Of a stretch of DNA of 64,000 nt, positions 49,685-56,059 are shown piece by piece. The DNA is taken from positions 3,534,001-3,598,000 of the forward strand of contig NZ_CP071597.1 in assembly GCF_017357405.1 (NCBI RefSeq), given 5' to 3'. A program made the position numbers and the translations under genes. Below the pieces are notes generated by a model. It ran no database searches. It was not told the DNA's origin and was given only the letters and a program-made list of their open reading frames with translations. This DNA comes from Halomontanus rarus. GTDB taxonomy: Archaea > Halobacteriota > Halobacteria > Halobacteriales > Natrialbaceae. The first letter of the stretch is position 1; every line of letters starts with the position of its first letter.

Positions 49685-50107
49685 TTAGAGTCCGCCGAGG
49701 AAGCCGCCGTTGAAGAGGTCGTCGTCGAGGTCCAAGTCGAAGTCGAGGTCGATGCCGGTCGCATCGTTGTCGGCGTAGTTCGCGGCAACTGCGTTCGTGT
49801 CTTCGACGTTGGCGGCGTTAGACTGGTCGACGTCCTGTCCCTGAACCGCGACCGTCGTCGCTTCGCTCTTGTCCGAGCTACTGTACGACGTGGCGCTCTG
49901 GACCTGCGCGTTGTTGTTCTCCTGATTGACCTCTATGTTGTTTTCAGCCTCGGCCTCCTGTTCGTTCTCTACTTCCGCGTTTCCGATATCGATCTCAGTG
50001 TCGTTACCGACACTGATATCCTGCGCTGCGGCTGTTCCAGCGAACCCCATGAACATGAGGCCCCCGACTAGTGCGACTGTCATTACGAGCGTCAGTGTCC
50101 GTTTCAT
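49685..50107 (-). CDS. Secreted Q/N-rich protein, partner of the divergent repeat protein
   Basis: 140 residues. A clean Sec signal peptide (basic MKR, hydrophobic core, cleavage after AGTAAA) is followed by an Asn/Glu/Gln-rich mature part (residues 40-70) and QGQDVDQSNAANV (about 89-101). The latter shares QDVDQ-N with the repeats of the divergent 515-residue protein. The C-terminus, LDFDLDLDDDLFNGGFLGGL, is acidic then Gly/Phe-rich. GGAG lies about 8 nt before the ATG, so translation uses a Shine-Dalgarno site. A minor fibre subunit or nucleator is my inference. Confidence 0.72.
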   Translation of the reverse strand: MKRTLTLVMTVALVGGLMFMGFAGTAAAQDISVGNDTEIDIGNAEVENEQEAEAENNIEVNQENNNAQVQSATSYSSSDKSEATTVAVQGQDVDQSNAANVEDTNAVAANYADNDATGIDLDFDLDLDDDLFNGGFLGGL

Positions 50108-50664
50108 AGTTGCTCTCCAGCAGGGCGTTTTGGCGACCCCACTGCAACCGTGTGACCGCCAGCGACCGATATGAATCCGCCCAACGGTTACAGGATAAGC
50201 TCAAAACTGTCATTCACACAATGTGATTGTTTCGACCATAGGATATTACTTATGCTGATACGAATTGGAAGCACCAATGTCAACAACAGTATGAATGCCG
50301 CAAGACCGAATCACTAAGACGAATGGCTATCCGCCATATCCGTGAGTTTCCGTCGCTGCTTTTCGGTTTTGGCACTCGTTTCGCTTTCGTAACCGACTGC
50401 TACTGCGCGTACAGTAGAACTGACATTAAATCACTGACACGAGTGTCGGCGTAGTTATAATTTTGGCGCATTTATTCAACCGAGAAACTCGCGTATTCTC
50501 ACCGTTCCATCTCGCAGCTGCCAGATTACGCTTAGTACGCGCTGTGTGATTCACCCCAATCGGTCAATAACAATACCCGAATCCGAGGAACGAATTTTCG
50601 CCGCGAACAGTAGTAGAAACAAAAGACACTCACGGCACAAATCAAACGACTACAGACTTACACA
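50108..50664. other. 557-bp divergent intergenic region
   Basis: It separates the two secreted repeat proteins, and is AT-richer than the genes. It should hold both promoters: AAACAAAAGA at 50617-50626 may be the BRE/TATA of the right-hand gene, TTTTGAGCTTATCC (minus strand, 50189-50202) that of the left-hand gene. No RNA gene or clear palindrome seen. Confidence 0.4.
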
Positions 50665-52212
50665 ATGACGATACGATCACAGCTCACGACAGTTTTCCTC
50701 GTCGGGATGCTCGTTGTCTCGCTAACCGCGTTCGTTCCCGCGGCTGCGAGTCAAGAGTCCTCCGACAACGGCGTACAGACACTCGAGAACGGCGACGCAC
50801 TCTACCTCTCGTTCGGTGCCGACCTCGAGGACATGAGCCTCGAGGAGTACGTGCAAGCCCACGCGTCGGACGACCTCGAGCAGGACTCGGTCGCGGAGAT
50901 TATCCAGTATCAGGACGTCGATCAGGTCAACATCAACACGCAGGAGGGCGCGACCTCCGTTTCGATCGACGGCGGCGAGGCGACCGCGATTCAGGAAGCC
51001 AGCCAGTACAACGACAACGACCAGTCCGCCGAGGCGGACGCGACCAACGAAGCTCGGGAGGATCGGTTCGAGAACGTCGGCGAGGTCTACATCCTGCTCG
51101 GGAACGGCGACGATCAGTCGTTCGACGGCTGGGCCGTGATGGACGAGGACAAGGATGCCGGCGACAGTGACAGCGTCTCCCAGGCCGCCGTCGCGACGGT
51201 CAGCCAGTACCAGGAGGTCGACCAGCTCAACTACAACAACCAGAGTACGGCGATCGCGATCGCAGAAAACGGCAGTGAGGCGATCGCACTCCAGCAGAGC
51301 GAACAGTACAACGAGAACCTCCAGCAAGGTGTTGCGAACGCGACGAACGTCTACGCGGACGACACCGACGGCGACAAGAAAAAGAAGAAAGCCGACGGCG
51401 TCAGTGGCACGCAGTACGCGGAGGCGAGCGTCGAGCAGGCGCAGAACGTCTCCCAGACGAACATCAACGAGCAGGGCGCTGCGGTGGCGATCGCCATCGG
51501 CGAGGACAGTACCGCCACGGCGATTCAGGTCACCGACCAGACGAACCTCAACACCCAGTACGGGAGCGCCGACGCGGCGAACGTCATCGGCCAGCTGGGC
51601 GGCATGAACGCGGTCTCCGCGGTCACCGACGGTGAAAGCGACGTTCTGACGACCGACAGCGAGACGAAACCCCACACGCACGACAAGAAAGCCAAGAAGA
51701 AAGGCGACGACGACGGTGATGCTCAGTACTCGGAGGCCAGCGTGACCCAGTACCAGAGCGTCGAGCAGGTCAACATCAACATGCAGAACATGGCTGTCGC
51801 GATCGCGACCGACGGGAGCGAAGCGTCGGCGGTCCAGATGTCCACGCAGGAGAACTACAACGCCCAGGTCGGTGCCGCCAGCGCTGCGAACGTCGCTGGA
51901 GACGGCATCGAAGGTGAAGTGTACACCGACCGCACGACGCTGACGGTCGGCGGCGATAACGTCACCGACAACCAGCGGTTCTCCTTCGATTACGACGGCA
52001 ACAGCGAGCAGCTGAACGACGTCGACCAGTACACCAGCGCGATGATCGAACAGGTCCAGTACGTCCAGCAGCTCAACCTCAACGAACAGCACGCCGCGAT
52101 CGCAGTCGCAGAGAACGGCGGCGAAGCCAGTTCGATGCAAATCAGCATGCAGACGAACGAAAACTACCAGTTCGCGTCGGCAGACGCGGAAACGATCGCC
52201 CTCGCCTGCTAA
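50665..52212 (+). CDS. Secreted curlin-like repeat protein
   Basis: 515 residues. A Sec signal (cleavage near AAASQ, residue 29-30) is followed by five copies of an about 50-residue repeat at roughly 76-128, 176-228, 254-307, 358-409 and 458-510. Each copy follows V-x-Q-x-Q-x-V-x-Q-x-N-x-N-x-Q, then AxAIAxxGxEAxAxQ and a second QxNxNxQxGxAxAxN. The regular spacing of Gln, Asn, Ala and Gly recalls the strand-loop-strand units of curlin CsgA. Linkers of 30-50 residues are acidic or Lys-rich (GDKKKKKADG, DKKAKKKG). It ends in a single Cys (LAC). Export and self-assembly into a beta-solenoid or amyloid fibre are inferred. Confidence 0.75.
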   Translation: MTIRSQLTTVFLVGMLVVSLTAFVPAAASQESSDNGVQTLENGDALYLSFGADLEDMSLEEYVQAHASDDLEQDSVAEIIQYQDVDQVNINTQEGATSVSIDGGEATAIQEASQYNDNDQSAEADATNEAREDRFENVGEVYILLGNGDDQSFDGWAVMDEDKDAGDSDSVSQAAVATVSQYQEVDQLNYNNQSTAIAIAENGSEAIALQQSEQYNENLQQGVANATNVYADDTDGDKKKKKADGVSGTQYAEASVEQAQNVSQTNINEQGAAVAIAIGEDSTATAIQVTDQTNLNTQYGSADAANVIGQLGGMNAVSAVTDGESDVLTTDSETKPHTHDKKAKKKGDDDGDAQYSEASVTQYQSVEQVNINMQNMAVAIATDGSEASAVQMSTQENYNAQVGAASAANVAGDGIEGEVYTDRTTLTVGGDNVTDNQRFSFDYDGNSEQLNDVDQYTSAMIEQVQYVQQLNLNEQHAAIAVAENGGEASSMQISMQTNENYQFASADAETIALAC

Positions 52213-54211: not shown

Positions 54212-56059
54212 CTATCGCCGACCGAACAACCGCTCGAACAGCGTCCGCTCGGTCGGCCGTTCGGCGAGCAGTACCGAGCAGTCCACCTCGTTGACGATGT
54301 CGAAGTGCAACGACCCGGAGACGAGCCGCGAGAGGAGTCCGCGTTCGCTCGCGCCGATGACGACCAGCGTGTGATCGTCGGCCTCGCGAGTGATCGCCCG
54401 CTCGACGTCTCCGGAGTCGTCGACCGTAATGGTCGCGTCCTCGAGATCGTGATTGTCGGCCCACTCGGTGAGAAATTGCTCGCCACGCTCGCGCCGTGAC
54501 GGGTCGTCGACGATGTGCAGCAGGGAAAGCTCCGAGCCGGCGGTCGACTGAAGCGTTCGCGAGACTTCGGCGCTCAGATCCGAGTCCGGTCCCCCTGCGG
54601 TAGGCAAGAGGATCCGCGACGTGTCTAGCTCTCGGTCCTCGAGGATGAGAAAGTCACAGGGGAGCTGGCTGGTCAGTTCGTCGATCGGTCGTTCGGCTCG
54701 AGCGGCGCCCCACAGCTGGTTCTCGCCCCAGCTCATCACGACGAGGTCGGCGTGGGTGCGCTCTGCGGCGTCGAAGATCTCTTCGAACGATCGATGAGAG
54801 ACGATCGTCGACGTCTCGCAGTCGACACCGTAGCCGTCGATCGTCTCACGGACGTCCGTCAGGAGGTCCTCGGATTCGTTGATGATTCGGTTACGTTGGC
54901 TGAGGTCGGATCCAGGCCCCGATCCCGTCCGTCGCGTCGGCGTCTGCACGATGTGGACGACGTGGACGACCGCGGAGTCGTGTCGACTGGCGAGCGTGCA
55001 GGCGAGGTCGACGAGCCGTGACTCGGTGCGCGGATTCGCGATCGGAACCAGCACTCGGTAGGAGTCGTCGCCGGTCGGCCTCGTCTCCGCAGTATCGATC
55101 AGGGGGACGTAAGAGCGGCCGACGAGACTCCCGAAGAGCCACTCGCGGACCGAGAGCCGTCGACTCGCGCCCTCGAAACGGGCCGACTCGAGTCGGTGTT
55201 CACTCGTCTGGTAGTAGTTGACGAGGGTCACCAGCACGATGCCGCCGATCGTGTTCCCGAGGAGGACTGGCAGGATGAACTCGGTCGTGCCGACGACGAT
55301 AGAGAGTCTCCCGTTGAAAACGAGATAGAGCATCTCGGTGAACGAGACGACGACGTGAAACAGGTTTCCGAGCGGTATCGCGAGGAACGCGAGGTAGACG
55401 ACGACCAGTCTCGAGATCGTGTCCCGGGCGGCGTAGACGACCCAGACGACGCCGGCGACGATCAATCCGGCGAAGGCGGCTTTGGAGAACAGGCTCCACC
55501 ACGACGTTTCGACGCCGTGGGTGGCGATCGAGATCGCGGCGTCCGACGTCGGTTCGTCGAACACGCCGCCCCACGCGAGGACGGCCGCGCCGATGGCACC
55601 GCCAGTGAAGTTTCCCGTGAGAACGATCGTCCAGTGGCGCAGTAACGCCGGCACGCTCGCCAGCCGTTCGATCGTCAGCGCGACCGGCGGAAGCGTGTTC
55701 TCCGTGTACAGTTGATAGCCGCCGATGATTATGTAGATGAAGCCGAGCGGATACAGCAGCGAACTCAGGACCGCATTGCCGTCCGTCGTCGCGTACAGCG
55801 AGGCGTACAACAGGAACGTGATCGTGATCGCGAAGCCGGCCGCGAGGCCGCTGAAGAACAGTTCGCGGCTCCCCGACGTAATTTCCTCGTCGGCGACGGC
55901 GACGATTCGCTGGAAGACTTCGTCCGAGGAGAACCGGTCGCGGACGACTGCTCCGACCGCGGGTGCACCGCTTCGGGAGCGTTCCACGGCGTCTCGAACC
56001 GTATCTCCCTCTCCCTCACCCTCGTTCTCTCCCTGATCGGAACGATCGGAGCCACTCAT
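54212..56059 (-). CDS. Formate/nitrite-type channel fused to two UspA domains
   Basis: 615 residues. Residues about 45-300 are an FNT channel with six helices (LFFSGLAAGFAI, LYTENTLPPVAL, GNFTGGAIGA, LGNTIGGIVLV). The C-terminal half carries two tandem universal-stress domains (about 335-470 and 475-605) with ends such as GASERGLLSRLVSGSLHFDIVNEVDCSVLL, split here over the nucleotide loop region. A direct link of a small-anion channel to ATP-binding stress domains suggests gating by energy state. The N-terminal 20 residues are acidic low complexity. Confidence 0.9.
   Translation of the reverse strand: MSGSDRSDQGENEGEGEGDTVRDAVERSRSGAPAVGAVVRDRFSSDEVFQRIVAVADEEITSGSRELFFSGLAAGFAITITFLLYASLYATTDGNAVLSSLLYPLGFIYIIIGGYQLYTENTLPPVALTIERLASVPALLRHWTIVLTGNFTGGAIGAAVLAWGGVFDEPTSDAAISIATHGVETSWWSLFSKAAFAGLIVAGVVWVVYAARDTISRLVVVYLAFLAIPLGNLFHVVVSFTEMLYLVFNGRLSIVVGTTEFILPVLLGNTIGGIVLVTLVNYYQTSEHRLESARFEGASRRLSVREWLFGSLVGRSYVPLIDTAETRPTGDDSYRVLVPIANPRTESRLVDLACTLASRHDSAVVHVVHIVQTPTRRTGSGPGSDLSQRNRIINESEDLLTDVRETIDGYGVDCETSTIVSHRSFEEIFDAAERTHADLVVMSWGENQLWGAARAERPIDELTSQLPCDFLILEDRELDTSRILLPTAGGPDSDLSAEVSRTLQSTAGSELSLLHIVDDPSRRERGEQFLTEWADNHDLEDATITVDDSGDVERAITREADDHTLVVIGASERGLLSRLVSGSLHFDIVNEVDCSVLLAERPTERTLFERLFGRR

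Follow-up and report, generated by a model that had tools for sequence, protein, structure and literature searches.

A divergent pair of secreted Gln/Asn-rich repeat proteins as a candidate amyloid-like fibre system of haloarchaea

Curli are formed from a main protein and a partner protein that are encoded together and secreted. For the Fap system, the available excerpt of an operon survey describes FapC as built of imperfect repeats with conserved Gln and Asn residues, each forming one layer, with three layers and flexible linkers; three repeats are given as near universal in Fap, and a conserved Gln/Asn ladder that stabilises stacked arches as common to FapC and CsgA (PMC12822426). One archaeal protein whose curli-like repeats are regularly spaced is mentioned in the accessible part of another source (PMC3521004), and the sheath protein SH of Methanospirillum is described, in excerpt, as forming giant beta-rings from monomers with a cap domain (PMC10593813). 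Here, a head-to-head gene pair is reported from 64,000 nucleotides of Halomontanus rarus (contig NZ_CP071597.1, positions 3,534,001 to 3,598,000; the window, meaning the whole stretch analysed). It encodes a secreted protein of five repeat units and a small Gln/Asn-rich partner. On balance, and with modest confidence, we infer that the two genes specify a haloarchaeal system of extracellular amyloid-like fibres, fibre formation included; the repeat itself represents an unnamed cross-domain family that most likely serves as such a system.

The features of the large protein are listed below, with window coordinates followed by protein residues. For each unit, the first half-motif position is the Q of Q.Q and the second is the motif position of the second half; AF2 denotes AlphaFold2.

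50665..52212, plus strand: large protein of the pair, five-unit secreted repeat protein (open reading frame, ORF, of 515 residues)
50665..50748, plus strand: probable Sec signal peptide of the large protein, residues ~1-28 (judged by eye)
50881..51045, plus strand: repeat unit 1, residues ~73-127 (half-motifs at 81 and 110)
51181..51345, plus strand: repeat unit 2, residues ~173-227 (half-motifs at 181 and 210; strands predicted by AF2 for the two-unit piece)
51346..51411, plus strand: linker 2-3, with a KKKKK run (sequence; surrounding AF2 confidence low)
51412..51579, plus strand: repeat unit 3, residues ~250-305 (half-motifs at 258 and 288; strands predicted by AF2 for the two-unit piece)
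51580..51723, plus strand: linker 3-4, acidic, with a Lys-rich run (sequence; AF2 confidence <50 at residues 310-346)
51724..51888, plus strand: repeat unit 4, residues ~354-408 (half-motifs at 362 and 391; strands predicted by AF2 for the full-length protein)
52027..52191, plus strand: repeat unit 5, residues ~455-509 (half-motifs at 463 and 492; AF2 strands at 459-473 and 495-503)

Each unit of about 55 residues consists of two Q...Q.N.N.Q halves, and variable charged linkers lie between the units. Ten copies of this half-motif were found in the large protein, whereas residue shuffling (20,000 rounds) yielded 0.003 on average and never more than 1; the motif had been picked after inspection of the sequence, although it recurs across the family. 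Of 7,993 candidates scored, 147 proteins were relatives of the large protein at E<=0.001, and alignment A1 contains 92 of the best 120 of them. In the 48 of these 92 members with exactly 10 half-motifs, the only ones in which spacing was measured, the half-to-half distance was 27 (191) or 28 (49) residues over 240 units. The distance to the next unit was variable, at 35-108 residues from motif start to motif start (n=192). The five copies that the sequence-only reading had recognised in the 515-residue secreted protein were thereby confirmed. Its division of the unit into two halves also held, but the 27/28 spacing gives halves of about 25-27 residues instead of about 22; the units are separated by linkers as it had stated, at distances that are not a constant 50 residues. 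The acidic or poly-Lys linkers it had described are present, and rigid units on variable linkers agree with its beads-on-a-string picture. The Lys-rich runs (KKKKK and KKAKKK, window positions 51376-51390 and 51685-51702) fall within linkers, and the rest of the protein is acidic; as a guess, they could bind extracellular DNA (eDNA) or poly-gamma-glutamate.

In the 92-member alignment, the half-motif stretches have 69 positions that are invariant or nearly so, and 68 of them fell in one two-residue phase (p 2e-19), a count that is partly circular, given that the anchor motif is itself evenly spaced, and whose binomial p is not an independent test, the genomes being related. When the motif's own letters were left out, the phase was kept at 25 of 26 positions (counted from printed offsets). 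Conservation at alternate positions is, at the level of sequence, a signature of beta-strands. Three strands per unit, of 20, 7 and 27 residues, were also predicted by AF2 for a two-unit piece (residues 168-310, 79 alignment rows); the mean predicted local distance difference test score (pLDDT) was 75.6 and the predicted template modelling score (pTM) 0.46, with block means of ~75-93 pLDDT in the unit strands and a disordered linker. The full-length model (pLDDT 61.2, pTM 0.56) had its strands within the units and was of low confidence along the linkers, and no capping domain was visible in its strand list. Against the orthologue of Natronoglomus mannanivorans (L037), the ratio of nonsynonymous to synonymous substitution rates (dN/dS) was ~0.22 for the large gene and ~0.26 for the small gene, and both look to be under purifying selection. 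Within the large gene, the units (0.17) are more constrained than the linkers (0.25).

Among 28 PDB fold matches, FapC amyloid took ranks 1-2, the CsgA fibril rank 7 and HET-s amyloid rank 13, and beta-solenoids (SufB/SufD, ice-binding proteins) also occurred among these weak matches; the best (E 0.02, TM 0.12) was not significant. A viral fold library returned 66 matches, none at E<=0.001. When profiles A1 and A4 were compared with PDB sequences, only a PhoQ sensor chain was obtained (E 0.12 and 0.024) and no FapC chain, the presence of FapC in that sequence file being assumed.

The partner gene lies 557 bp away on the other strand, and a hydrophobic, signal-peptide-like stretch opens both proteins (by eye).

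49685..50107, minus strand: divergent small secreted Q/N-rich protein of 140 residues, about one (permuted) unit (ORF, hhalign, co-occurrence)
49880..49948, minus strand: small protein, residues 54-76, region of the first half-motif, with Q.N.N.Q at 62-68 (alignment A2)
49817..49864, minus strand: small protein, residues 82-97, region of the second half-motif, with Q.QDVDQ.N (alignment and motif scan)

The small protein contains one Q.Q...Q.N half, with a QDVDQ.N string common to both proteins, together with a degenerate Q.N.N.Q half; the small partners at L049 and L078 show one complete unit (by eye). When the small-protein family was compared with the unit by hhalign, a match with E 8.3e-8 and prob 94.5 was obtained (E 2.3e-5 and prob 76 with a 17-row profile), and the small protein is, on this evidence, homologous to the unit of the large protein. 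In Haladaptatus salinisoli (L102:5893-7849, plus strand), five tandem motif-bearing ORFs of 83-153 residues were seen in a stretch with no five-unit gene.

The occurrence of the two genes was surveyed in 391 genomes of the class. A match to the 32-row small-protein profile was found at E<=0.001 in 113 genomes and at E<1e-10 in 75, and all 75 of the latter carried the large gene, which was present without a strong small-protein match in 9 genomes. The E<1e-10 cut was set after inspection of the list, because the profile (A7) includes the signal peptide and draws weak matches (E ~1e-4 to 1e-6) in genomes that lack the large gene. The within-family contrast was made against 21 known negatives (20 listed plus G371), and its Fisher p-values come from related genomes, so that the tests are not independent. 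At least 90 of the 126 profile positions were spanned in 70 of the 75 genomes with strong matches; in G004, G005, G025, G203 and G247, where the best match covered only the first ~70 positions and the ORFs were of ~290-340 residues, a longer relative may have been matched. A motif-bearing small ORF was found in divergent orientation within 2 kb at 37 of 44 non-Tat loci (36 of 43 if the identical stretches L042 and L043 are counted once) and at 1 of 17 Tat-type loci, Tat type having been assigned by regular expression rather than by a predictor; elsewhere at the same loci, the motif occurred in 7 of 2,520 ORFs of similar size. These 61 loci came from 67 after removal of L053, L086 and L095 (short upstream sequence) and L097, L102 and L103 (no full main ORF), and the 44 non-Tat loci are mostly, not all, from Natrialbaceae. 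The head-to-head 140-residue Q/N-rich protein with its QDVDQ-N motif, as first noticed from the letters of this DNA, is present, and its pairing with the large gene is borne out by the survey.

The large gene was present in 84 of the 391 genomes, 79 of them in the family of the window (taken as Natrialbaceae, as judged from named loci) and 5 in three other families; in a phylum-wide draw, the unit was found in 11 of 294 genomes, all from that same family. The 68 named loci are mostly from Natrialbaceae (Natrinema, Natrialba, Natronorubrum), together with Haladaptatus, Halegenticoccus, a few others and one bacterial metagenome-assembled genome (MAG). Three forms were distinguished: a plain Sec-like form, a form bearing PGF-CTERM and a Tat-like form with RRGYLKG-type leaders (by regular expression). 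At E<=0.1, 21 of the 92 members gave a match to PGF-CTERM, and some of the homologues that bear this anchor have five units. A C-terminal Cys was considered as an anchor or cross-link and rejected; a Cys lies in the last six residues of just 25 of 138 sequences and is the sole Cys in 10. A second copy of the large gene (560 residues) exists in the same genome, with no motif-bearing neighbour within the 19-kb stretch examined around it. A viral origin was likewise rejected, as one pattern scan of viral contigs matched 21 stretches and yielded no relative. In titles and abstract openings, with few subscription papers covered, no report on this repeat family was recognised.

Three tandem two-unit proteins are encoded on a Thermincola ferriacetica MAG contig (L104:5977-8289, plus strand). 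These match the unit by hhalign with prob 99.8 and E 8.3e-28, have no evident signal peptide and carry an added C-terminal part; P0157 (215 residues, on a 21.9-kb contig) resembles them. By homology, then, the unit exists outside haloarchaea, in a Bacillota MAG. The tandem genes adjoin two YheC/D-like ATP-grasp genes and a PGA_cap gene. YheC/D are associated with the spore coat in Bacillus, and the Thermincola proteins might, at a guess, be spore-surface proteins.

Two elements were located in the intergenic region of the window.

50567..50573, plus strand: ATAACAA element, 98 bp before the ATG of the large gene (conserved among intergenic regions)
50616..50649, plus strand: conserved leader directly before the ATG of the large gene (alignment of 12 of 26 intergenic regions)

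A longer form of the element, GATAACAAA, was present in 23 of 26 divergent regions, and the window, L037 and L038 keep the ATAACAA core only; in 20 shuffles used as a control, no 8-mer occurred in more than 7 of the 26 regions. At other loci, two further blocks, GCGTTGCCC and AACGGTTTC, lie closer to the small gene; the window has neither. Common descent explains part of this conservation. The five neighbouring genes were assigned by Pfam to a CDC48-type AAA protein, a nickel insertion protein, a Rad51-type protein and a formate/nitrite transporter with universal stress protein (Usp) domains, and one had no match. In the transporter gene (window 54212-56059, minus strand), the formate/nitrite transporter domain is fused to two Usp stretches. 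Clustering of the neighbours in 66 stretches (the window and 65 loci), which drew on ORFs already filtered for length and composition and produced some clusters that are antisense artefacts, gave LarC-like genes at 24 loci, RadB-like at 24 and CDC48-like at 20, which shows a chromosomal context common to many loci; no conserved secretion helper was recognised in it.

In the mechanism proposed, each unit of ~55 residues would fold into a single flat layer of three beta-strands, a short one between two long ones, and the conserved Gln, Asn and Ala side chains of each layer would form a ladder pointing in one direction. Within a large protein, the five layers would stack, tethered by the disordered charged linkers, and such chains would stack end to end into a fibre outside the cell, possibly within the biofilm matrix. 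The small partner, of about one unit and encoded on the opposite strand, would add to, start or cap the stack. Both proteins would leave the cell by the ordinary Sec route, or by Tat in one subfamily, and therefore no outer-membrane exporter would be needed; PGF-CTERM variants would hold the fibre at the cell surface. Because some five-unit homologues carry the PGF-CTERM anchor, a cell-bound base formed by the five-unit protein is as likely as nucleation by the short protein.

A true archaeal curlin, that is, a divergent member of PF07012, would also place Q, N, A and G at alternating positions, and the UniProt name of the homologue P0148 begins 'Curlin associated r...'. Nevertheless, PF07012 matched none of the 92 members at E<=0.1, did not support P0148 at E<=1 and found nothing in the genome of the window at E<=10. 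The QxGxxN(x5)Q core, which CsgA and CsgB have in 5 copies each and the haloarchaeal curlin L105 in 10, has no copy in either protein of the pair, and bare QxGxxN occurs twice in the large one. With hhalign, the two-unit profile reached prob 0.1 against CsgA/CsgB and against the haloarchaeal curlins, whereas the two curlin profiles, of two sequences each, matched one another with prob 94.5. With this working positive control, curlin identity was rejected and is rated very improbable, and the specific link to curlins drawn by the sequence-only reading is not supported. No match of note was obtained in Pfam and NCBIfam for both proteins or in a single-sequence PDB search with the large protein, and in these searches the repeats fell into no known family.

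The large protein might alternatively be a surface protein that does not polymerise, a self-contained five-layer beta-solenoid acting as an adhesin or S-layer decoration, with the small protein as a cap that blocks fibre growth. The near-fixed number of units (the full-length homologues listed have 4 or 5 first-half motifs each), the PGF-CTERM variants and the SufB/SufD and ice-binding solenoids among the weak fold matches are consistent with this account, against which stand the lack of a capping domain in the AF2 strand list and the Gln/Asn ladder on stacked arches, a feature common to FapC and CsgA in the excerpted survey (PMC12822426); it is considered unlikely. An improbable alternative is a disordered, charged Q/N-rich matrix polymer without ordered layers, which would gel, or whose Lys-rich linkers would bind anionic polymers such as eDNA or poly-gamma-glutamate. 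The long charged linkers of low AF2 confidence, the KKKKK and KKAKKK runs and the PGA_cap gene beside the bacterial relatives would suit such a polymer. The two-residue periodicity, the rigid spacing within units, the unit strands at block-mean pLDDT ~75-93 and the weaker constraint on linkers than on units (dN/dS 0.25 against 0.17, L037) argue for ordered layers instead.

If the pair does encode an amyloid-like fibre system, a more specific proposal can be put forward tentatively, and may well not hold in full: a class of functional amyloid of its own, unnamed and separate from both curli and Fap, in haloarchaea and Bacillota, with a five-layer subunit, a co-encoded one-layer partner and export without a dedicated channel, anchored by PGF-CTERM in some species, which would be one source of the amyloid staining of archaeal biofilms. 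In the excerpt of one paper, staining of Haloferax volcanii biofilms with Congo red and thioflavin T suggests amyloid, and the sole candidate named is HVO_1403, by homology to a Sulfolobus factor (PMC4180959). The proteins of the pair are candidates for the protein behind the amyloid staining of archaeal biofilms. According to its excerpt, the curli/fap operon survey took a repeat into account only if a further curli or fap gene lay within 5 kb, and would for that reason miss a channel-free archaeal system (PMC12822426). The pair also supplies specific genes for experiments in cultured Natrialbaceae, and a repeat unit common to archaea and a Bacillota MAG.

True PF07012 curlin-repeat proteins with a signal-peptide-like start do occur in haloarchaea, at L105:1303-2037 (minus strand, 245 residues, E 2e-45) and L106:994-1614 (plus strand, 207 residues, E 1e-36); such curlins passed the cut-off in 2 of 292 genomes of the class, both from genus g19 of the window's own family. 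They come from the same class of archaea and are small and secreted, and their MKRTL signal peptide is like that of the small partner (only the signal peptides align), but their repeats are canonical and unrelated to the unit described here. With CsgA and CsgB the pair shares the alternating Gln/Asn ladder and the encoding of a main and a partner protein together (csgBA order seen), whereas its unit is about twice as long, is followed by linkers and shows no Q-X-G-X-X-N-x5-Q core, PF07012 match or profile match. No csgG, csgE or csgF gene was found in the Pfam scan of the five neighbours, no dedicated csgG search having been made; CsgG/E/F are not expected because there is no outer membrane. 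The sheath protein of Methanospirillum is an archaeal extracellular beta-arch polymer, set apart, by its description in the excerpt, through rings of cap-domain monomers in place of a linker-joined chain of five repeats (PMC10593813). From FapC/FapB of Pseudomonas the pair differs in having five units rather than three and in a fold similarity that is not significant; no fap-like gene was seen in the Pfam scan of the five neighbours. Because its anatomy is likewise one of repeat layers joined by flexible linkers, and because it supplies the top two, albeit weak, fold matches, FapC appears to be a better working analogue of the large protein than curli.
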